Part shown: piece by piece, positions 11,486-20,778 of the stretch
Position numbering within the stretch: the stretch's first letter is position 1
How the letters are laid out: the number at the start of each line of letters is the position of its first letter
Assembly: GCF_900009135.1 (NCBI RefSeq)
Contig: NZ_LT797688.1
Span: 118,120 to 153,249 of the forward strand
DNA from: Planktothrix sp. PCC 11201
Lineage (GTDB): Bacteria > Cyanobacteriota > Cyanobacteriia > Cyanobacteriales > Microcoleaceae
Length of the DNA: 35,130 nucleotides
Reading direction: 5' to 3'
Made by a program: the position numbers and the translations under genes
The notes under the pieces: generated by a model
Database searches by the model: none
Told to the model about the DNA's origin: nothing
The model's input: only the letters and a program-made list of their open reading frames with translations

Positions 11486-11491
11486 AGGAGG
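11486..11491 (+). promoter_or_regulatory. Consensus ribosome-binding site of the coiled-coil gene
   Basis: A full AGGAGG lies five bases before the ATG at 11497. Most genes in this window have no clear Shine-Dalgarno sequence, so this points to strong translation of the first gene of the cluster. Confidence 0.75.
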
Positions 11492-11496
11492 TACAA

Positions 11497-12096
11497 ATGG
11501 CTGAAATTACTAAGGAAGAAATGCGGGAGCGTTTGGGCAATATTGACCAAATTCGTGATATCATATTTGGATCGCAACTTCGGGACTATAATACTAGGTT
11601 TGACAAGATCGAGTCTGATTTGGCACTATTACAGGAAGATGCCCAGGATCGGGTTGAACAACTCAAAACTATTTTAACGGCAGAAATCAAGTCTGTTGTT
11701 GAGAATTTAGACAAAAAAATTAAAACCCTGAGTTCAAATTCTCAGGAGGAGTTAACGGATTTAAGACAACAGGCTGATCGACTGAATCGGAAATTTTCCA
11801 GTAGTATTGAGGCGTTAGATGAGGCCTTAGATAGTCAAACTAATTCCTTGCGGGAAGAATTGGGACAAACCCGTGATCAGTTACAAGACGAAGTTCGCAG
11901 TCTGAAAAATCAAGTCTTAGAAGAATTAGAACGTCGATTTACTTTATTGACAGAGGCAAAAGTCTCCCGGGATGATATGGCTGAAGTTCTGTTTGAAGTT
12001 GGGATGCGATTAAAGGGGACTGAATTTGTTCCAGCTATTAAACAGGCGGCTGAGGAAAAAAATTCAGGTTTTGCCCTCCCAGAACATCATCTATAA
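11497..12096 (+). CDS. Coiled-coil protein, first gene of the GTPase cluster
   Basis: A soluble 199-residue protein, almost entirely predicted coiled coil between about residues 35 and 150 by heptad spacing of Leu/Ile/Val (for example DKIESDLALLQEDAQDRVEQ, then LDKKIKTL and LNRKFSSSIEALDEALDS). The N terminus (EITKEEMRERLGNIDQIRDI) and the C terminus (SRDDMAEVLFEVGMRLKG) look like small conserved helical caps. No membrane segment, no signal peptide, no known enzyme motif. I recall similar proteins in cyanobacteria but no function. It has the best ribosome-binding site of the region and is 16 bases from the next gene, so the two are surely translated from one mRNA. A role as a scaffold or effector of the GTPase is an inference from position only. 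Confidence 0.82.
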   Translation: MAEITKEEMRERLGNIDQIRDIIFGSQLRDYNTRFDKIESDLALLQEDAQDRVEQLKTILTAEIKSVVENLDKKIKTLSSNSQEELTDLRQQADRLNRKFSSSIEALDEALDSQTNSLREELGQTRDQLQDEVRSLKNQVLEELERRFTLLTEAKVSRDDMAEVLFEVGMRLKGTEFVPAIKQAAEEKNSGFALPEHHL

Positions 12097-12112
12097 TTAA
12101 TTCGGTCAAACT

Positions 12113-14824
12113 ATGACCTTTTCTCAGGGTGATTTAAGTCCAAACAATCAACAACAGGGGAATTCATCTCAACAAAATCCGTCGGATCAGGTTGAGAGTG
12201 ATCCCCTAGAATTGTTGGTGAATTTATTGATGGATTTAAACGGTTTTAATGAGGGTAAAACTGAGTCTGTCACCGCTTTACCCTCAGAAGATGATCATTC
12301 TAAATCTGATTTTTTAACTGCTTTACTCTCAGAAGATCAACAACCGAGTGATCATTCAAAATCCCATAGTTGTACCGATTTACCCTTAGAAAATCAACCC
12401 AGTATTGATGGGATAACAGCCGATGAGATTTCCTCTAAAATAGAATCTATTAACCCGATTCCCTCGATTCAGACTGGATCTTCGAGGACGGCAAAATCAG
12501 AAGATGATCTGATTTTGCGACTTCTACCTTTACTGGAAAAACCGCCCTCCGGGGCGATGGATGTGGACTATTCAGTCAGTAATATTGAAGAAGATGTACC
12601 GAGGATTTCTGCTAATCCTGTACCCCAATTAGAAACTTCTAAAAATCAGGATATTATTGAAAATATTAGTACCCCTTTACCCTTAGATCCAACTGATATT
12701 AACTCAAAATTAGATTCCGTTAATTTAGAAACAGATTTAACTAAAAATCTCTCCTCAAACCCTGAATTACCATCTCCCAGTCTATCCCCACAATCTTCAA
12801 CTATTCAGAGCAAAAATCCTGTTTCTAGGGGTAATGATCCTTTGGATAAATTACAGGAATTAATGTTTGGATCTAATTTAGGGGATGACTTAGATAATTT
12901 TAAAAACCATTTGTTGAATTCTGAGTTACCAGAAGTTCGAGAATTAGTCCAAAATATTAATAATAAACTCAGTCAAATTCAATTCCAAATTCATGATCCC
13001 GAACAATTAATTAAACTTTTACTGCCCACCATTGGTCAACTTTTGCATTTAAAAGTTACTGAGTCCAAAGAAGAATTAATTCAAGCGTTTATTCCGATTA
13101 TTGATCAGGTTATTAAAGGGAAAGGTCAAACCGATCGACAGGCGATGAGTGCGGCTATTGCTGATTTAATTCCTGAAGCAATTAGACAACAAATTCAAAA
13201 TTCTCCTAAAGAAATTGCTCAGGCTTTGGGGCCAGAAATGGGGGCAGCAATTCGAGAACAAATTAAAGTTGATCGGAATGAAATTGCCGCAGCTTTAGCA
13301 CCGACGATTGGACGCACCATTAAAGAACAGGTGAGTTTAGAACGAGATTCCATGGTAGATGCACTGTATCCGGTGATTGGGAGTACGATTACTCGTTATT
13401 TAGGGGAAGCAATTCAAGAAATCAATGAAAAAGTCAGTCAGACTTTTAGTGCTGAGGGTTTGAAACGGAAAGTTCAATCCAAAGTCCAAGGGGTATCGGA
13501 AGCCGAATTAATATTACGAGAAGTGAGTCGCTTTGTGGTGCAAGCGGTGTTTTTAATTCATAAAGGTTCGGGTTTAATTATTGCTGAAATTCAACAACCG
13601 GATCAAGCGCAAATGGAAGCGGAAATGGTAGCTGGAATGTTAACAGCAATTCGGAGTTTTGTTAATGATTGTATTATGCAGACGGGGGAAGTTTCCGAAC
13701 TGAATGAAATTGAATATGGGGATTGTAAAATCATCCTAGAAGTGGCGGGATATTGTTATTTAGCGGTGGTGGTAAAGGGGGACTGTCCGAAAGCATTTAT
13801 TAAAAAAATTCGCCAAACGATGAATACTTTAATTATGAAATATAGTCAGCCTATTGAAGAATTTGAAGGTGATCCAGATTCAGTTCCTGAAGGAGTTATT
13901 AGTCAGCTTGAAGGTTTAATCAGAGTCGCAACCCGTTTGAAGACTGAGCAAAAGCCAATAACTTTGTTGATTTTTGGTTCGGTGCTATTGAGTTTGATTC
14001 TAATTCCTTGGGGAATCTATCAATATAGACAACATAATTTCCGACAGTTAGAAACAACATTAATCACGGCTTTAGGAGTGGAGCCTGAGTTATCAATTTA
14101 TACTTTTAAAGTTAAAGCTCAGGATCAAACCTTAGTCTTAGAAGGGAAAGTTCCCACCGCTCGATTAAAAGATAAAGTTGAAAAAATTGCCCAACAAACC
14201 GCCCCAAATTTTCAAATTAATAATCGGATTATTGCGGTTAAAGTTCCTCCAGATCCCATAAAAGTTGCCACCGAAGTTAAGCAAATGGCAACTATAATGA
14301 ATCAAATTAGTGGGATATCAATTTCTGCTCATTATCAAAATTTCCAAGTGAATTTAAAAGGAAAAGTGATAAAATCTGAAGATATTCAGAAAATTACCCA
14401 AGCGTTTAAGAAAATTGAAGGGGTAGATTCAGTGATTGCCAATCTAACGGTGCAACCTTTACCGATAGCTACTAGAATTTATTTTAATTTTGGTTCGGCG
14501 GAATTAGTCTTAAAAGATATTCGAGGTAAACTTGTCCCTCTGGCTCAATATTTAAAACGATATCCTGATCTCAAATTGCAAATTATTGGTTATAGTCATG
14601 AACAGGAAAAATCCCGAAAACATCCTGATTTAGCCTTAGAACGGGCTCAAACCATCCAAAATGTTTTAGAGGATTTAGGAATTGATCGGCGACGGATAGA
14701 AACAGTGGGTAAAATTGAACGTCCCGAGGGAGTTGATCTCAATCAAGAAGTTTGGTTGAGTCAAACGGTTTTGTTTGAGATAATACCGTTACAGTTTCAA
14801 CAAAATAACCCCCCAAAACCATGA
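12113..14824 (+). CDS. Membrane protein: helical repeats, longin/roadblock-like domain, TM, two BON domains, OmpA domain
   Basis: A 903-residue protein. Residues 1-245 are acidic, Ser/Pro-rich and probably disordered. About 294-435 hold six copies of a 23-residue helical repeat (such as KEIAQALGPEMGAAIREQ and NEIAAALAPTIGRTIKEQ). About 455-580 form an alpha/beta domain with the strand pair VFLIHKGSGLIIAEI and LAVVVKG, which resembles longin/roadblock domains that partner small GTPases (pattern only). One membrane helix follows at about 615-637 (LLIFGSVLLSLILIPWG), then two BON-type domains (about 643-785) and a C-terminal OmpA-like peptidoglycan-binding domain (about 790-895, YFNFGSAEL, GYSHEQ, LERAQTIQNVLEDLGI). 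The likely topology is N-terminal part in the cytoplasm, BON-OmpA in the periplasm. Its stop overlaps the start of the small GTPase gene by four bases (ATGA), a sign of tight coupling. Confidence 0.85.
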   Translation: MTFSQGDLSPNNQQQGNSSQQNPSDQVESDPLELLVNLLMDLNGFNEGKTESVTALPSEDDHSKSDFLTALLSEDQQPSDHSKSHSCTDLPLENQPSIDGITADEISSKIESINPIPSIQTGSSRTAKSEDDLILRLLPLLEKPPSGAMDVDYSVSNIEEDVPRISANPVPQLETSKNQDIIENISTPLPLDPTDINSKLDSVNLETDLTKNLSSNPELPSPSLSPQSSTIQSKNPVSRGNDPLDKLQELMFGSNLGDDLDNFKNHLLNSELPEVRELVQNINNKLSQIQFQIHDPEQLIKLLLPTIGQLLHLKVTESKEELIQAFIPIIDQVIKGKGQTDRQAMSAAIADLIPEAIRQQIQNSPKEIAQALGPEMGAAIREQIKVDRNEIAAALAPTIGRTIKEQVSLERDSMVDALYPVIGSTITRYLGEAIQEINEKVSQTFSAEGLKRKVQSKVQGVSEAELILREVSRFVVQAVFLIHKGSGLIIAEIQQPDQAQMEAEMVAGMLTAIRSFVNDCIMQTGEVSELNEIEYGDCKIILEVAGYCYLAVVVKGDCPKAFIKKIRQTMNTLIMKYSQPIEEFEGDPDSVPEGVISQLEGLIRVATRLKTEQKPITLLIFGSVLLSLILIPWGIYQYRQHNFRQLETTLITALGVEPELSIYTFKVKAQDQTLVLEGKVPTARLKDKVEKIAQQTAPNFQINNRIIAVKVPPDPIKVATEVKQMATIMNQISGISISAHYQNFQVNLKGKVIKSEDIQKITQAFKKIEGVDSVIANLTVQPLPIATRIYFNFGSAELVLKDIRGKLVPLAQYLKRYPDLKLQIIGYSHEQEKSRKHPDLALERAQTIQNVLEDLGIDRRRIETVGKIERPEGVDLNQEVWLSQTVLFEIIPLQFQQNNPPKP

Positions 14825-15348
14825 TTTCTAAAAAAATTTGCTTAGTTGGTGATTTCGGAGTTGGAAAGACCAGTTTAATCCGCAGGTTTGTGGATAGACA
14901 GTTTAGTGATCAATATTTGTCCACCGTAGGAGTAAAAATTTCTCGTAAAATTGTTGATCTAACGGAATTCACTTCAGAAAAAACTGGATCTGTACAATTA
15001 TTAATTTGGGATATTGAAGGCCATACTAAATTTAAAGCGATCGCCCCGAGTTATTTACAGGGAGCGAGTGGTGTGGTAATTGTTGCCGATGTGACCCGAC
15101 AGGAAACCGTAGAAAGACTCCCGGAACATATTAATTTATTTCTGTCTGTGAATCCCAAGGGGTCGATCGTGATCGCGTTTAATAAAATTGATTTGATCGA
15201 TGCAACAGAACTTGAACATCTAATCAAAATAACCCCGGATTTAAAACAGTATGGACAGATTTTATCTAGCTATAAAACCTCAGCAAAAACAGGAGATGAT
15301 GTAGATACAATTTTCTATGAATTATCTCAGAAATTTATCTCTGGTTAA
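14821..15348 (+). CDS. Rab/Ras-like small GTPase
   Basis: A 175-residue small GTPase that looks more like eukaryotic Rab than like Era or Der. P-loop GDFGVGKT (10-17), switch I threonine in STVGV (Thr35), switch II WDIEGH (63-68), NKID (121-124) and SAK (154-156) are all present. The sequence FVDRQFSDQYLSTVGV is strikingly Rab-like. The switch II differs from the usual WDTAGQ: the catalytic Gln is His68, and Thr-Ala are Ile-Glu. An insertion of some residues lies between switch I and switch II. No C-terminal cysteine exists, so no prenylation. Ras-like GTPases with cognate roadblock or longin partners are known in bacteria, for example MglA/MglB of Myxococcus. The start overlaps the preceding gene by four bases, so the OmpA/longin-like protein is the prime partner candidate. 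Nearly certain GTP binding; function unknown. Confidence 0.93.
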   Translation: MISKKICLVGDFGVGKTSLIRRFVDRQFSDQYLSTVGVKISRKIVDLTEFTSEKTGSVQLLIWDIEGHTKFKAIAPSYLQGASGVVIVADVTRQETVERLPEHINLFLSVNPKGSIVIAFNKIDLIDATELEHLIKITPDLKQYGQILSSYKTSAKTGDDVDTIFYELSQKFISG

Positions 15349-15387
15349 AGGATTAAATCTAGTTTTTTCTGTATTCTGGGATGAATT

Positions 15388-17262
15388 ATGAATAACCTGT
15401 TAAAAAAAATCTTAGCACCAAAACGACTTGAATATTTGACTACTAATTCTGAGTGGGTCATTGTCGAGATGTCCTGGGGTGTAGCTAGATTTGCAGATTG
15501 TCCAGAACAATTGCGATTAGGAGAAGATGTCTGTATGGCTTTTCCTGAGTTCATTGGATTAGAAGAAACCTTTAAGAAAATTTTGTTGAGTCAAATCAAT
15601 CAGTTTGAACTCAAAGGAATTTCTAGGACAATTACTCAGGAACATACGATTTATTTTGATATTTATGTTTTGAAAAATACTGATAATTCTCGCTGTGAGC
15701 CAGAACTATTAATTGTATTTGAGGATACAACAGAATGGATTTTAAAGGAACAAAAGATTACTCAGGTTGCCAAGGAGTATGGATTGGCTTTAAGTGCTTT
15801 AGAAAAAACCAAAATCTATTTAGATAAAATTATTAATTCTATGACAAATATATTAATTGTCACAGATGATAAAGGAATGATCAAAATTATCAATCAAGCT
15901 ACATCGGTTTTATTAAAATATTCAAAAGCAGAATTAATCCAGCAATCTATTTTAACTATTTTTAAAGATAATCAACTTAAAAATTATCACCAAGTCAATC
16001 AATTTTTATTATCTTCTGATTTATTAAAACCCGTTGAAGTTATCTGTCAGACCAAAATAGGAACCAATTTTCCCGTCTCCTTTTCCTGTGCAGCCCTAAA
16101 TTTTGATCCCAATGATCCCCAGGAATTCGTTTGGATGGGTCAGGATATGACCGAACAAAAACGGGTAGAATTTCAGTTGTATCAACAAGCCGAACGCGAT
16201 CGGATCTTAAAAACCATTACACAACATATTCACCAGTCTTTAAGTCTACAGAAAACTTTAGAAACAACCGTGAATGAAGTTCTGACTTTTTTAAAAGCAG
16301 ATCGAGTTTTAATTTATCGATTTTACTCTTTAGAAGAAGGAAAAGTAATTGCTGAATCCTTAGCAAACTCTTGCATTAGTTCTATTGATAGCATTGTTTT
16401 TAGTCCAGATTTTAATTCTTTATTATTATCTTATTTTAAAGCGGGTAAAATTCATGCTATTGATGATATATATAAGATTTCAAATTATAAATATTTAGAT
16501 TATTTAGTTCAATTAAAAGTAAAATCTAGTTTAATAGTCCCGATTATAATTTATGATTCTTCTATTTCACCCCAGTCTAATACCAGTAATCAACTTTGGG
16601 GATTATTAATAGCCCATCAATGCCAGCAACCTCGGCATTGGGAAGTCTGGGAAATAAACTTATTAGAAGAATTAGCCCTACAAATCGCCATTGCGTTACA
16701 ACAGGCTGAACTTTATCAACAATTACAAATCGTCAATCAAGAATTAGAGCAATTGGCAATTGAGGACGGATTGACAAAACTGGCAAATCGTCGTCAGTTT
16801 GATCGGGTACTTGAGCATGAATGGAATCGCTGTAGACGAGAAGGAATACCCCTGTCCTTATTTTTACTAGATATTGATTATTTTAAACAATATAATGATC
16901 ACTATGGACATTTAGCTGGAGATTTTTGCTTACAACAAGTTGCTCAAGTTTTACGGAATGTCATTCAACGGAATACCGATTTAGTGGCTCGTTATGGGGG
17001 GGAAGAATTTGCTATCATTTTACCCAATACCGATATTAATGGCTGTATTCATCTCGCTCAAAAGGTTCGGAAAGCTGTTGAAGACTTAGAAATACCGCAT
17101 CTCAAATCAACGGTGAGCAAATATATCACAATTAGTATTGGAGTAGCGGGTTTAATTCCCGTTGCAGGTCTGACATCTGAAATGCTTATCTTTCAGGCTG
17201 ATCAAGCTTTATATAAAGCTAAAGAAAGTGGACGAAATTGTGTTTTTATTGCTACTCACTAA
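15388..17262 (+). CDS. Sensor diguanylate cyclase (PAS-like, PAS, GAF, GGDEF)
   Basis: A 624-residue soluble sensor that should make cyclic di-GMP from two GTP. The N-terminal module (about 1-135) is a PAS-like domain shared with the next gene (key pattern RLGEDVCMAFPEFIGLEE). A PAS domain follows (about 145-265, ILIVTDDKGMIKIINQA), then a GAF domain (about 285-450) with the WGLLIAHQCQQPRHW signature of cyanobacteriochrome-type GAFs but no Cys-His chromophore site, and the GGDEF domain (about 460-624). The active-site loop is GGEEF (537-541), competent in known cyclases; the inhibitory I-site RNTD (528-531) sits exactly five residues before, so product inhibition is expected. No EAL domain or membrane helix. 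The ATG at 15388 is 39 bases after the GTPase gene. It could respond to a ligand, redox or the GTPase. Confidence 0.93.
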   Translation: MNNLLKKILAPKRLEYLTTNSEWVIVEMSWGVARFADCPEQLRLGEDVCMAFPEFIGLEETFKKILLSQINQFELKGISRTITQEHTIYFDIYVLKNTDNSRCEPELLIVFEDTTEWILKEQKITQVAKEYGLALSALEKTKIYLDKIINSMTNILIVTDDKGMIKIINQATSVLLKYSKAELIQQSILTIFKDNQLKNYHQVNQFLLSSDLLKPVEVICQTKIGTNFPVSFSCAALNFDPNDPQEFVWMGQDMTEQKRVEFQLYQQAERDRILKTITQHIHQSLSLQKTLETTVNEVLTFLKADRVLIYRFYSLEEGKVIAESLANSCISSIDSIVFSPDFNSLLLSYFKAGKIHAIDDIYKISNYKYLDYLVQLKVKSSLIVPIIIYDSSISPQSNTSNQLWGLLIAHQCQQPRHWEVWEINLLEELALQIAIALQQAELYQQLQIVNQELEQLAIEDGLTKLANRRQFDRVLEHEWNRCRREGIPLSLFLLDIDYFKQYNDHYGHLAGDFCLQQVAQVLRNVIQRNTDLVARYGGEEFAIILPNTDINGCIHLAQKVRKAVEDLEIPHLKSTVSKYITISIGVAGLIPVAGLTSEMLIFQADQALYKAKESGRNCVFIATH

Positions 17263-17312
17263 GTCGTGGGACATTCATAAACCGAATGGTAAAAATGACT
17301 CAATTTCTGACT

Positions 17313-17332
17313 GTTGCCCGTTGCCTATTCCC
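17313..17332. repeat. Heptad repeat between the two cyclase genes
   Basis: On the minus strand this reads as GGGAATA-GGCAACG-GGCAAC, three linked heptads of the same class as those at 10861 and 35045. It lies in the 177-base spacer and inside the open frame upstream of the true start of the adenylate cyclase, which argues against a start at 17314. Confidence 0.65.
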
Positions 17333-17439
17333 GATTACTTGTCACCCAATATTCAACGGGTTTTTGTTTTGATTGCATCTATTTATCAACCATTTTTTTG
17401 ACTCCAAACTTAGAAAAAATTATCATCAATTCAGGGACT

Positions 17440-19602
17440 ATGAACCATTTATTTAAACAATTTTTAATAGCGCGAAAAATGGACTATTTGGTGATTAATC
17501 CAGAGTTAAAGATCCAGGATTTTTCTCAAGGGGTTATTCGGTTTGCTGAAGATTCAGAAGGTTTAAATCAAGGAGAAGATGTACACTTTTATTTTCCTGA
17601 ATTGATTGGAACAGAGGATATTATTGATGCCATTATTCAGGGACACCAAGATTACTTTGAATTAAATGCCATGAGTCGGCAAATTGAAGAAACAACATCA
17701 ATTTATTTTAATATTTACTTTCTAGGTGTTTCAATTCAAGGGGAACATATCCCCGAATTAATGTTACTGTTCGAGGATGTGACACAACGAATGGAACTAG
17801 AACAGGCTTTAGTTCAAGAAACCAATGAATCCCGTTTGCTGTTAAATGCCTATTCCCATTCCCAACAATATATTGATCGAATTATTACCTCAATGGAGGA
17901 TATTTTAATTGTTACGAATCAGCAGGGGATTATTCAAAAGATAAATCTCGCCACTTTATCCCTATTAGAATATAGTCAATCGGATTTAATTAATCACTCC
18001 CTTTCTTCCTTTGTGGAAGATGATACCTTTTTGCAAGAATATTTAAAGGAATCTTCCCTGAAAAAACAGGACTTTTTATTTAAAAATTTGGAGTTAACCT
18101 GTCAGAAAAAACATGGCGGTAAAATTATCCTAGAATTTTCGATCTCGACCCTAACAACGGATACGGATGATTCCCTAGACTTTATTTATGTGGGTCGGGA
18201 TATTACCGCCAGAAAACGCGCTCAACAACGGATGTTTACTCAGTATCAAATTTCTCGGATTCTGTCTGAAGCTCCGAATATTCATGAAGCTTTACTGCAA
18301 ATTTTACAATCAACTTGTGAAAGTTGGGGATGGATATTGGGAGAGGTTTGGATGTTAGAAAATTTCTCGGAAGCACCCTTAGTTTTGGGAAACAAACTCT
18401 CTCAAACCCATGCTTTTAAAGTCAATTCTACTAACCCCAAACTGGAGTGTATTAAACTCTGGATTAACTCAGATTCTGATCCCTCGAAAATTCAGGGACT
18501 TTATCAAAAAATTAACCTAGATTCTAATATGAGTTTACCAGGTAAAATTTGGCAAACTGGTTTTGCCCATTGGATCGAAGATGTGATGGTTAATGATCAA
18601 TTTACTCAAAAAGATATTGCGGAAATATTGGGATTACACAGTGGTTTTGGGTTCCCAATTAAAGATGGCAAAGAAGTCTTAGGAGTCATAATTTTTTTGG
18701 GTTCAGAAATTTGTTTTCCCGATCCTGAATTGATGCAAACTATGACCACTATTGGTAGTCAACTCGGTCAATTTATTAAACGAAAATTGGCTGAAATTGC
18801 TCTCCAATATCAACAACAACAAACAGAACGTTTACTTTTAAATATTCTCCCAGAACCGATTGCAGAACGTCTAAAAAAAGAACAAAAAACCATAGCAGAA
18901 CATTTTTCTGAAGTCACGGTTTTATTTGCCGATATTGTTGGATTTACGCAAATTTCATCTAGCTTAAGCCCGATTGCTTTAGTGAATTTACTCAATGAAT
19001 TATTCTCAGCTTTTGATCGATTAACGGAAAAATATGGCTTAGAAAAAATTAAAACTATTGGTGATGCCTATATGGTGGTGGGAGGATTACCCTATCCCTG
19101 TTCCAATCATGCAATCGCGATCGCAGAAATGGCTTTAGATATGCAAAAAGCAATTCTTGAATTTAATGAAACTCATAATCAAGTGTTAAGTTTGCGAATT
19201 GGAATCCATAGTGGGCCCGTCGTCGCGGGAGTGATTGGGATTAAAAAATTCCTTTATGATTTGTGGGGAGATACGGTCAATATTGCCTCACGAATGGAAT
19301 CCCACGGGTTAGCAGGACGGATTCAAATTAGTGAAGATACCTTCCATCTTTTACCCGATCAATATGTTATATTCAAACGAGGGATAATTTCAGTCAAAGG
19401 TAAAGGAGCGATGAATACTTATTTTTTATTAGGCCGAAAAGGAGAAAAAAGTCTCCCTATTATAGAGCAAATTATTCCCGAAAAAAATCAATGCAAAAAT
19501 GCCGCAGCACAGCATTTAGTTGAAGTGATTCATAATAAACTTCAAGACAGCTATCCCCTCAAATTCGATGAACTTACCGATCGCTCACCGGATTTAGGAT
19601 AA
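17440..19602 (+). CDS. Sensor class III adenylate cyclase (PAS-like, PAS, GAF, cyclase)
   Basis: A 720-residue protein that should make cAMP from ATP. Residues 1-250 repeat the PAS-like plus PAS module of the previous gene (compare GEDVHFYFPELIGTED). A GAF domain follows (about 260-460, MSLPGKIWQTGFAHWIEDV). The cyclase homology domain is about 485-670. Metal-binding Asp498 (FADIVGFT) and Asp542 (TIGDAYM) are present, as are the transition-state residues Asn614 and Arg618 (VNIASRM). Adenine specificity is indicated by Lys538 (KIKTIGD) and Asp607 (YDLWGD); guanylate cyclases have Glu and Cys there. All six residues for a homodimeric enzyme are thus intact. The open frame extends back to 17314 through a heptad repeat, but the N-terminal homology with the previous protein starts at the ATG at 17440. 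A 50-residue tail follows the cyclase domain. Confidence 0.93.
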   Translation: MNHLFKQFLIARKMDYLVINPELKIQDFSQGVIRFAEDSEGLNQGEDVHFYFPELIGTEDIIDAIIQGHQDYFELNAMSRQIEETTSIYFNIYFLGVSIQGEHIPELMLLFEDVTQRMELEQALVQETNESRLLLNAYSHSQQYIDRIITSMEDILIVTNQQGIIQKINLATLSLLEYSQSDLINHSLSSFVEDDTFLQEYLKESSLKKQDFLFKNLELTCQKKHGGKIILEFSISTLTTDTDDSLDFIYVGRDITARKRAQQRMFTQYQISRILSEAPNIHEALLQILQSTCESWGWILGEVWMLENFSEAPLVLGNKLSQTHAFKVNSTNPKLECIKLWINSDSDPSKIQGLYQKINLDSNMSLPGKIWQTGFAHWIEDVMVNDQFTQKDIAEILGLHSGFGFPIKDGKEVLGVIIFLGSEICFPDPELMQTMTTIGSQLGQFIKRKLAEIALQYQQQQTERLLLNILPEPIAERLKKEQKTIAEHFSEVTVLFADIVGFTQISSSLSPIALVNLLNELFSAFDRLTEKYGLEKIKTIGDAYMVVGGLPYPCSNHAIAIAEMALDMQKAILEFNETHNQVLSLRIGIHSGPVVAGVIGIKKFLYDLWGDTVNIASRMESHGLAGRIQISEDTFHLLPDQYVIFKRGIISVKGKGAMNTYFLLGRKGEKSLPIIEQIIPEKNQCKNAAAQHLVEVIHNKLQDSYPLKFDELTDRSPDLG

Positions 19603-19653: not shown

Positions 19654-20778
19654 ATGACCCTAGCAGAATCTTGGACAAATCAGTGGCGTTTCCAACTGGA
19701 AAATGACTATCCTAACTCTAGTCAAGACCAACGAGAAAGTATCATTAATTGGTTACTGGGAGAACATTTTACCACCTTAGATTCCCTTCCTATTAACCAA
19801 CAAGAACGAATCAAATTAGGGTTAAACTTTCGCTATCGAATTTTGCAACAGCGCTATTTAGATACGCCGCCGGAAAAAGCCTATCGAAATTTAATGCAGC
19901 GATTAGGAAGTTTAATGATTCTACGCCAAAAAGTTCGTCTTTGGGTGGCAACGAGTCGAGATCGCCAACGTCAAGTGGTGGATGTTTTACAAGAAGTGGT
20001 ACAGGAAATGTTGAATAGTGATCGCTATTTACAACAACAAATCCAATGGATTTCTCAGTGTACAAGCGATCGGAAATTAAGTAATGCTTTACTATTCACA
20101 ACGGTAGAAGAATATTGTCTCCGTCCCATTCGGAATCAACCATTATTAGTTTATAGATTTGTTAACTATTTACGTCGTTCTCAACGGGGTGGATTAACCC
20201 AAGTTCCCGCCGGAGAATGGATTAAACAATTATCCGATGAAATTCTCTCAGAGGAAACCGAAGACACCATTAGTTTATTAGACAATCAAGCGATCATTCA
20301 ATACGAAGATGAACAATATTTTCAAACCCAACAAAACCAAAGGTTAAAAGTACAAACAGAATTTGAAGACTATTTAATTAAAAATGTAGATTCAACGGCG
20401 GCGGAATGGTTGCGACTTTATTTACAAGGATTATCTCAAGAAGCGATCGCTCAAAAGTTAAATTTACCCATTAAACAAATCTACCGACTGCGGGAAAAAG
20501 TTAGTTACCATGCAATTAAAAATTTTACCTTAAAACAGAATCCCGAATTAGTCACCAGTTGGTTAGGAACCTCTTTATCCGAACATCGTTTAGGATTAAA
20601 TTCCGAACAATGGCAACAATTTTGGCAAAGTTTAAACGATAACCAACGTCAAATTATTGAAGGATTAAAAGCCGGAGAAAATTTAGAAACTATTGCTAAA
20701 ATCCTCAACTTAAAAATTACCCAAATTCAGCAAGAATGGACTACAATCTATTTAATAGCTCAAGATCTTCGGAATTAA
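19654..20778 (+). CDS. HetZ-related protein
   Basis: A 374-residue soluble protein that I recognise as a member of the cyanobacterial HetZ-related family (the group often labelled HetZ-related protein 2). The landmarks are RYRILQQRYLDTPPEKAYRNL, read here in part, then RLGSLMILRQKVRLW, VEEYCLRPIRNQPLLVYRFV, and YLRRSQRGGLTQVP. Two helix-turn-helix-like segments, LSQEAIAQKLNLPIKQIYRLRE and GENLETIAKILNLKITQIQQ in part, lie in the second half, in sigma-factor-like style, so DNA binding is likely. HetZ itself acts early in heterocyst formation, but relatives occur in strains without heterocysts. The gene follows the adenylate cyclase by 51 bases on the same strand and may belong to the same transcript. 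Function in this organism is unknown. Confidence 0.75.
   Translation: MTLAESWTNQWRFQLENDYPNSSQDQRESIINWLLGEHFTTLDSLPINQQERIKLGLNFRYRILQQRYLDTPPEKAYRNLMQRLGSLMILRQKVRLWVATSRDRQRQVVDVLQEVVQEMLNSDRYLQQQIQWISQCTSDRKLSNALLFTTVEEYCLRPIRNQPLLVYRFVNYLRRSQRGGLTQVPAGEWIKQLSDEILSEETEDTISLLDNQAIIQYEDEQYFQTQQNQRLKVQTEFEDYLIKNVDSTAAEWLRLYLQGLSQEAIAQKLNLPIKQIYRLREKVSYHAIKNFTLKQNPELVTSWLGTSLSEHRLGLNSEQWQQFWQSLNDNQRQIIEGLKAGENLETIAKILNLKITQIQQEWTTIYLIAQDLRN

Follow-up and report, generated by a model that had tools for sequence, protein, structure and literature searches.

Organization of the locus

The stretch of DNA analyzed here (the window) comprises 35,130 nucleotides of Planktothrix sp. PCC 11201 (contig NZ_LT797688.1, forward-strand positions 118,120 to 153,249) and carries five consecutive genes for a coiled-coil protein, a transmembrane protein with a longin-like domain, a Rab-like GTPase, a predicted diguanylate cyclase and a predicted adenylate cyclase. 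Judged by its sequence, this system is a small-GTPase module of the Group 1 Rup type, matching each published feature that we examined. The system is real and conserved, and its gene neighbourhood has been described before, yet is uncharacterised. We lean towards reading it as a relay that would run from a longin platform to the GTPase, from the GTPase to a PAS-like domain and from there to the output enzymes. The original prediction for this DNA had placed five plus-strand open reading frames (ORFs) at 11497-19602; our ORF check agrees in position and strand, and both the AGGAGG ribosome-binding site of gene 1, with its 5-nt spacing to the ATG, and the four-base overlap of genes 2 and 3 (ATGA) are there. 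The features are the following.

11486..11491, plus strand: AGGAGG ribosome-binding site of gene 1, 5 nt 5' of the ATG (from the sequence)
11497..12096, plus strand: gene 1, coiled-coil protein of 199 amino acids (aa) with conserved N- and C-terminal motifs
12113..14824, plus strand: gene 2, 903 aa; low-complexity N-terminus, helical region, longin-like domain, one transmembrane helix, two BON stretches, OmpA domain
13535..13921, plus strand: longin-like domain of gene 2, aa 475-603, strand-strand-helix-strand-strand-strand-helix-helix (AlphaFold2 (AF2) model, VIA-align, Foldseek)
13955..14020, plus strand: single predicted transmembrane helix of gene 2, aa 615-636 (hydropathy)
14480..14713, plus strand: OmpA domain of gene 2, aa 790-867, with GYSH as its GxxD motif (Pfam, alignment)
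14821..15348, plus strand: gene 3, Rab-like (Rup) GTPase of 175 aa, overlapping gene 2 by 4 nt
15007..15024, plus strand: G3 motif WDIEGH of gene 3, in which His replaces the catalytic Gln (from the sequence)
15388..17262, plus strand: gene 4, N-terminal PAS-like domain, PAS, GAF and GGDEF; predicted diguanylate cyclase
15763..15765, plus strand: codon in gene 4 for the linker-helix residue Gln126, which is conserved (Gln in 36 of 37 aligned rows)
17440..19602, plus strand: gene 5, N-terminal PAS-like domain, PAS, GAF and predicted class III adenylate cyclase

Gene 5 very likely starts at the ATG at 17440 and not at the mechanically assigned TTG at 17314, because the former aligns with the start of gene 4. 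Scans for promoters (45 found against 35.2 expected, standard deviation 5.1) and terminators (6 against 7.6) were uninformative.

The GTPase and its family

The identification of gene 3 as a Rab-like GTPase holds well: Pfam assigns it to Roc and Ras (E 1.9e-27 and 3.2e-26), and its nearest solved structures are Rabs, with Rab22A as the closest PDB match (E 1.2e-22). It carries the P-loop, NKxD and SAK motifs, has His at the switch-II Gln position, and its C-terminus lacks a prenylation Cys. As a single domain of 175 aa it falls within the 150-240 aa expected of a Group 1 Rup GTPase. Among the four Ras matches in its own genome it is the only short stand-alone frame, the other three being weaker and lying in frames of 471-1064 aa. 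Its four nearest relatives (88-91% identity) come from two Planktothrix records and two metagenome-assembled genomes of Oscillatoriales.

According to Wuichet and Sogaard-Andersen (PMC4316618), Group 1 Rup GTPases lack the switch-II Gln and are never coupled to MglB. Their neighbourhood, as described there, includes a coiled-coil protein, a protein with a domain of unknown function that is often followed by a transmembrane segment and OmpA, and an output enzyme with an invariant Gln in its N-terminus, which is either a GGDEF/EAL protein or a histidine kinase. The window has the same composition: a GTPase without the switch-II Gln, a coiled-coil gene, a gene joining the unknown domain to a transmembrane segment and OmpA, and a Gln-bearing output N-terminus. 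Beyond that description, our analysis adds predicted folds for both unknown domains (longin-like and PAS), class III cyclases as a further major output, and two cyclases within one operon; the words 'adenylate', 'cAMP', 'longin' and 'PAS domain' do not occur in the main text of that paper.

The affinity to MglA and MglB suggested by the original prediction had to be abandoned. The G3 motif follows WDxxG (WDIEGH in the window), keeping the Asp that is absent from the G3 motif of the MglA family, and the genome has no Robl_LC7 match at E 0.01, so the system belongs with Rup rather than with MglA/MglB. A joint tree separates 11 MglB-coupled rows from 68 Rup-type rows, most but not all of which lie beside a longin gene and among which at least two loci are entered twice; support is 1.0 for the MglA clade and 0.63 for the remainder. 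All 68 Rup-type rows have WDxxG and 66 lack the Gln, whereas of the MglB-coupled rows 10 have xG[TV]PGQ and one has a gap. The MglA/MglB system and the actinobacterial conservons are alike in pairing a Ras-like GTPase with a partner of the roadblock/longin superfold and with signalling enzymes; the partner here, unlike theirs, is a longin-like transmembrane protein and not a free roadblock protein.

A predicted longin-like domain in the transmembrane protein

In gene 2, Pfam finds the two BON stretches and the OmpA domain that had been predicted. The 'longin/roadblock-like' domain proposed for it fared less evenly: a moderate-confidence predicted structure favours it, but neither Pfam nor PDB sequences provide a match. 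In that predicted structure the domain has the longin order strand2-helix-strand3-helix-helix, and the 50 structural matches listed include chains of TRAPP, C9orf72-SMCR8 and Fuzzy-Inturned and the longins of Sec22b/Ykt6/VAMP7. With HMMER filters on, none of 32 longin-region members matched the longin or roadblock Pfam models at E up to 1, and the region matched no PDB sequence up to E 10; profile-profile comparison of the sequences gives a roadblock likeness that is suggestive only. Two properties of the model count against a longin platform, namely its only moderate confidence (mean predicted local distance difference test score 69.5, falling to 46-60 across residues 101-140) and additional N-terminal helices. 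Eukaryotic longin proteins and Rab platforms such as those just named likewise bring together a Rab-like GTPase and a longin-fold partner; unlike them, the partner in the window is encoded in an operon, spans the membrane, is fused to periplasmic BON and OmpA domains and has no Pfam Longin sequence match. The term 'bacterial longin' does not occur in the 15 literature matches listed of 252, drawn from a collection that lacks most subscription papers, which does not amount to its absence from the literature.

Anchoring of gene 2 to the cell wall, also part of the original prediction, is doubtful in Planktothrix. The Asp of the OmpA GxxD motif and a downstream Arg are the usual peptidoglycan-binding residues. 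Four Planktothrix-type rows (the window, L003, L004 and L005) have GYSH in place of a GHTD-type motif, with His at the Asp position and the downstream Arg kept, and the loss of the Asp therefore makes peptidoglycan binding questionable. The Asp is retained in all 25 other cyanobacterial rows and in 3 of 3 rows from other bacteria. Ahead of the longin-like domain, gene 2 contains repeated amphipathic helical units with the pattern EIAxAL.P.IG..I..QI (aa ~300-443, window 13010-13440), partial matches to which also occur in L045 and L046. In the relatives L022 and L011 the longin/OmpA gene is broken up into individual frames.

Output enzymes share an N-terminal PAS-like domain

Pfam bears out the domain assignments of gene 4 (PAS, GAF and GGDEF) and gene 5 (PAS, GAF and Guanylate_cyc). 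Each of them has, in addition, an N-terminal domain that the original prediction did not list and whose predicted structure has the PAS fold. The GGDEF domain of gene 4 retains the GGEEF and RxxD sites. The catalytic domain of gene 5 (PF00211, E 1.7e-67) has the metal, substrate-selecting and transition-state residues and is a predicted class III adenylate cyclase.

A Gln in the linker helix is the hallmark of this N-terminal domain. The 37-row alignment (A2) that gave the near-invariance noted above left out 4 of 41 N-terminal-domain rows (L002, L012, L022 and one of L019) and a short L026 fragment; by eye, the four omitted rows also have the Gln. Alignment A1 omits L022, a broken copy, and the window's own L001. 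In a second set of cyclases the Gln is present in 16 of 16 (15 from Pseudomonadota, one cyanobacterial). It probably corresponds to the invariant Gln described in PMC4316618, where the idea is put forward that such a residue acts in trans. Following that idea, the conserved PAS linker Gln may stand in for the Gln that switch II lacks and set the timing of GTPase inactivation, and its conservation in two phyla favours this. Several observations weigh against it: two GTPases (L045 and L048) keep a Gln of their own, one L018 output has His, L038 lacks the linker Gln, and the position of the residue in the PAS linker helix means that its conservation could serve coiled-coil signalling alone. Reciprocity, by which a GTPase with its own Gln would have a partner without one, failed at L048, where both partners still carry it.

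The same Gln could be read in the opposite direction. The output enzymes would then stand upstream, their PAS domain acting as a GTPase-activating module through which cyclase or kinase signalling resets the GTPase, and the true effector would be the coiled-coil or the longin protein. That 66 of 68 GTPase rows have no switch-II Gln, that the linker Gln of the partners is near-invariant and that PMC4316618 hypothesizes a Gln acting in trans all fit this arrangement, but exceptions to the Gln occur among GTPases and partners alike, and the exchange of catalytic domains suggests outputs rather than regulators. We consider it quite improbable.

The genome is rich in cyclases, with 22 class III cyclase domains, which counts against the relay; one of them near a GTPase is not striking by itself. 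More striking is that gene 5 is the only class III cyclase in the genome that coincides with a match to the shared domain (10 of 19 candidates scored). Two short copies of the N-terminal domain elsewhere in this genome, G000 (G000:C8:2627-2836 and G000:C28:232917-233126), of ~70 residues, with equal scores and in 78-aa frames, are possibly remnants of a duplicated piece.

Conservation and co-occurrence in cyanobacteria

A gene-neighbourhood search found the gene order conserved across genomes rather than confined to this one. It yielded 39 GTPase loci, consisting of 34 cyanobacterial ones, three from other bacteria and two weak ones (L039 and L040, 27%) that were not used. Among the 34 cyanobacterial loci, several of which end at contig ends, the longin/OmpA gene is visible in 29, an output gene carrying the shared N-terminal domain likewise in 29, and the complete coiled-coil gene in 23; at L006, L007 and L035 the GTPase is present but no longin or output gene can be seen. 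Of 386 cyanobacterial genomes, 45 contain the longin-region family, 45 that of the GTPase and 45 that of the N-terminal PAS domain. The longin and GTPase families overlap in 44 genomes and the other two pairs in 41 and 41 (hypergeometric p ~1e-55, 6e-46 and 6e-46, uncorrected for relatedness). A chance neighbourhood of unrelated signalling genes, which a genome with 22 class III cyclase domains might be thought to invite, is thus already contradicted by this co-occurrence and by a gene order conserved in two phyla (see below), and is hardly credible. The flanking genes, moreover, rarely accompany the module: proB adjoins it at no loci but L003 and L005; sbcC does so at these two, and is otherwise seen just at L006, ~2 kb away on the opposite strand.

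Linkage within the module is uneven. A longin gene lies upstream, on the same strand and within 6 kb of 46 of 50 cyanobacterial GTPase genes, but a gene with the N-terminal domain is that close in only 29 of 50. Of the 50, 12 form a second GTPase subtype (37-44% identity), 11 of the 12 having no such gene within 6 kb. Nor do the families always travel together: G195 has longin and PAS genes and no GTPase at E 1e-15, four genomes (G024, G308, G340 and G360) have longin and GTPase without a PAS match, and three (G197, G300 and G368) have the PAS domain alone. All this weakens the case for the relay. G255, from the same genus as the window, has none of the three families. The neighbours examined in the second subtype are a kinase-like protein at L041, a degenerate-looking cyclase followed by a kinase at L043 and nothing recognised at L042. 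The cyclase at L043 (L043:7297-8313, of the second, Nostoc-like subtype) appears catalytically degenerate, with changed metal Asp, Asn and Arg positions, and the kinase-like gene follows it. No fused GTPase-partner protein was found among the 50 cyanobacterial GTPase frames. At L031, two GTPase genes lie ~3.6 kb apart on one strand, and behind each comes a separate output gene that carries the shared domain; one of these encodes a kinase and the other a cyclase.

The difference between 46 and 29 of 50 suits another explanation, in which GTPase and longin protein form one unit, a membrane or polarity scaffold resembling MglA/MglB, and in which the cyclases and kinases sense a small ligand by way of their PAS domains and are only co-transcribed or co-localised, without being switched by the GTPase. 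PAS folds often bind ligands, and the N-terminal domain of the output enzymes is a predicted PAS fold. On the other hand, this PAS-like family recurs beside GTPases on kinases, GGDEF proteins and class III cyclases, in two phyla by profile comparison, and half of the cyclase loci examined in Pseudomonadota show a 4-nt overlap of GTPase and cyclase genes. We consider such a scaffold unlikely, though the strongest competitor to the relay.

The module in Pseudomonadota

The longin profile matches 47 of 349 Pseudomonadota genomes (49 matches; one was read per genome, leaving out the second matches of G540 and G603). A coiled-coil gene is present at 46 of the 47 loci and a GTPase at 42; four of the five without a GTPase run off the contig, and L136 has none in 10.5 kb. 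The gene after the GTPase encodes a class III cyclase at 30 of the 42 loci (L114 included), a GGDEF-EAL protein at five and a histidine kinase at two, nothing being recognised at four and the contig ending at one. At 15 of the 30 cyclase loci, the GTPase and cyclase genes share 4 nt.

The N-termini of these cyclases (15 from Pseudomonadota plus cyanobacterial L043) match the PAS-like profile from cyanobacteria along 118 columns (P 3.6e-6; none of 201 controls as high), and do so without L043 (P 6.4e-6). A second profile comparison of output N-termini, with unshared rows and without a shuffled control, gave P 2.2e-4. Six output N-termini from the second subtype and other phyla gave a weak match (P 0.0062; 2 of 201 controls as high), which weakened to P 0.023 over 48 columns once the cyclase row was removed. 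The claim that the PAS-like domain spans phyla relies only on the cyclase N-termini. In the histidine kinase at L131, the N-terminal domain is the same as in the cyclases.

A proposed relay and its implications

In retrospect, three elements of the original interpretation survive: the Rab-like GTPase, the longin-type partner (as a predicted fold) and a conserved gene link to enzymes of cyclic di-guanosine monophosphate (c-di-GMP) and cyclic adenosine monophosphate (cAMP); the kinship with MglA/MglB does not, and the wall anchoring is doubtful in Planktothrix. Beyond the gene order, conservation, co-occurrence, predicted folds and motifs seen here, we infer physical binding, the direction of the signal, and the exchange or activating roles. 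In the relay that we favour, the longin-like domain of gene 2, on the cytoplasmic side, would be a membrane-fixed platform for the GTPase and would set its nucleotide state there, probably as exchange factor and/or activator, while the periplasmic BON and OmpA domains would report the state of the envelope. The GTPase, having no lipid tail of its own, would bind the output enzymes at their dedicated PAS-like N-terminal domain, from which the linker helix would relay the signal to the catalytic domain. The Planktothrix operon would thus switch a diguanylate cyclase and an adenylate cyclase together, and with them c-di-GMP and cAMP; in relatives, the enzyme switched by the GTPase would be a class III cyclase, a histidine kinase or a GGDEF-EAL protein.

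Taken to its full extent, the relay may be a complete bacterial pathway from G protein to cyclase, with a transmembrane longin as exchange factor for a Rab-like GTPase that switches an adenylate cyclase, a diguanylate cyclase or a kinase through a PAS effector domain; we put this forward only tentatively. If true, the Rab-longin partnership of eukaryotic trafficking would have a bacterial counterpart in signalling from envelope to second messenger, which bears on the origin of that pairing, and a bacterial adenylate cyclase would be under small-GTPase control. In yeast, the small GTPase Ras is linked to a class III adenylyl cyclase, Cyr1, via leucine-rich repeats; here, too, a GTPase possibly controls a class III cyclase, but would do so via a PAS-like domain. 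Should the partner prove to be a longin and the product cAMP or c-di-GMP, established GTPase and cyclase assays could test the system directly.

The module may plausibly act in surface behaviour, such as gliding or attachment. According to a review (PMC4284465), Spirulina responds to cAMP with increased gliding and mat formation, and a Synechocystis mutant without the adenylate cyclase Cya1 is non-motile. These effects, together with 13 matches to cyclic nucleotide monophosphate-binding domains in the Planktothrix genome, 12 of them above the cut-off, are what make such a role plausible.

Downstream of the module, a gene for HetZ-related protein 2 (NF037965, E 1.1e-172; window 19654-20778) begins ~50 bp 3' of the cyclase gene, and the same order of cyclase and HetZ-related protein 2 genes is kept in L003, L004 and L005.
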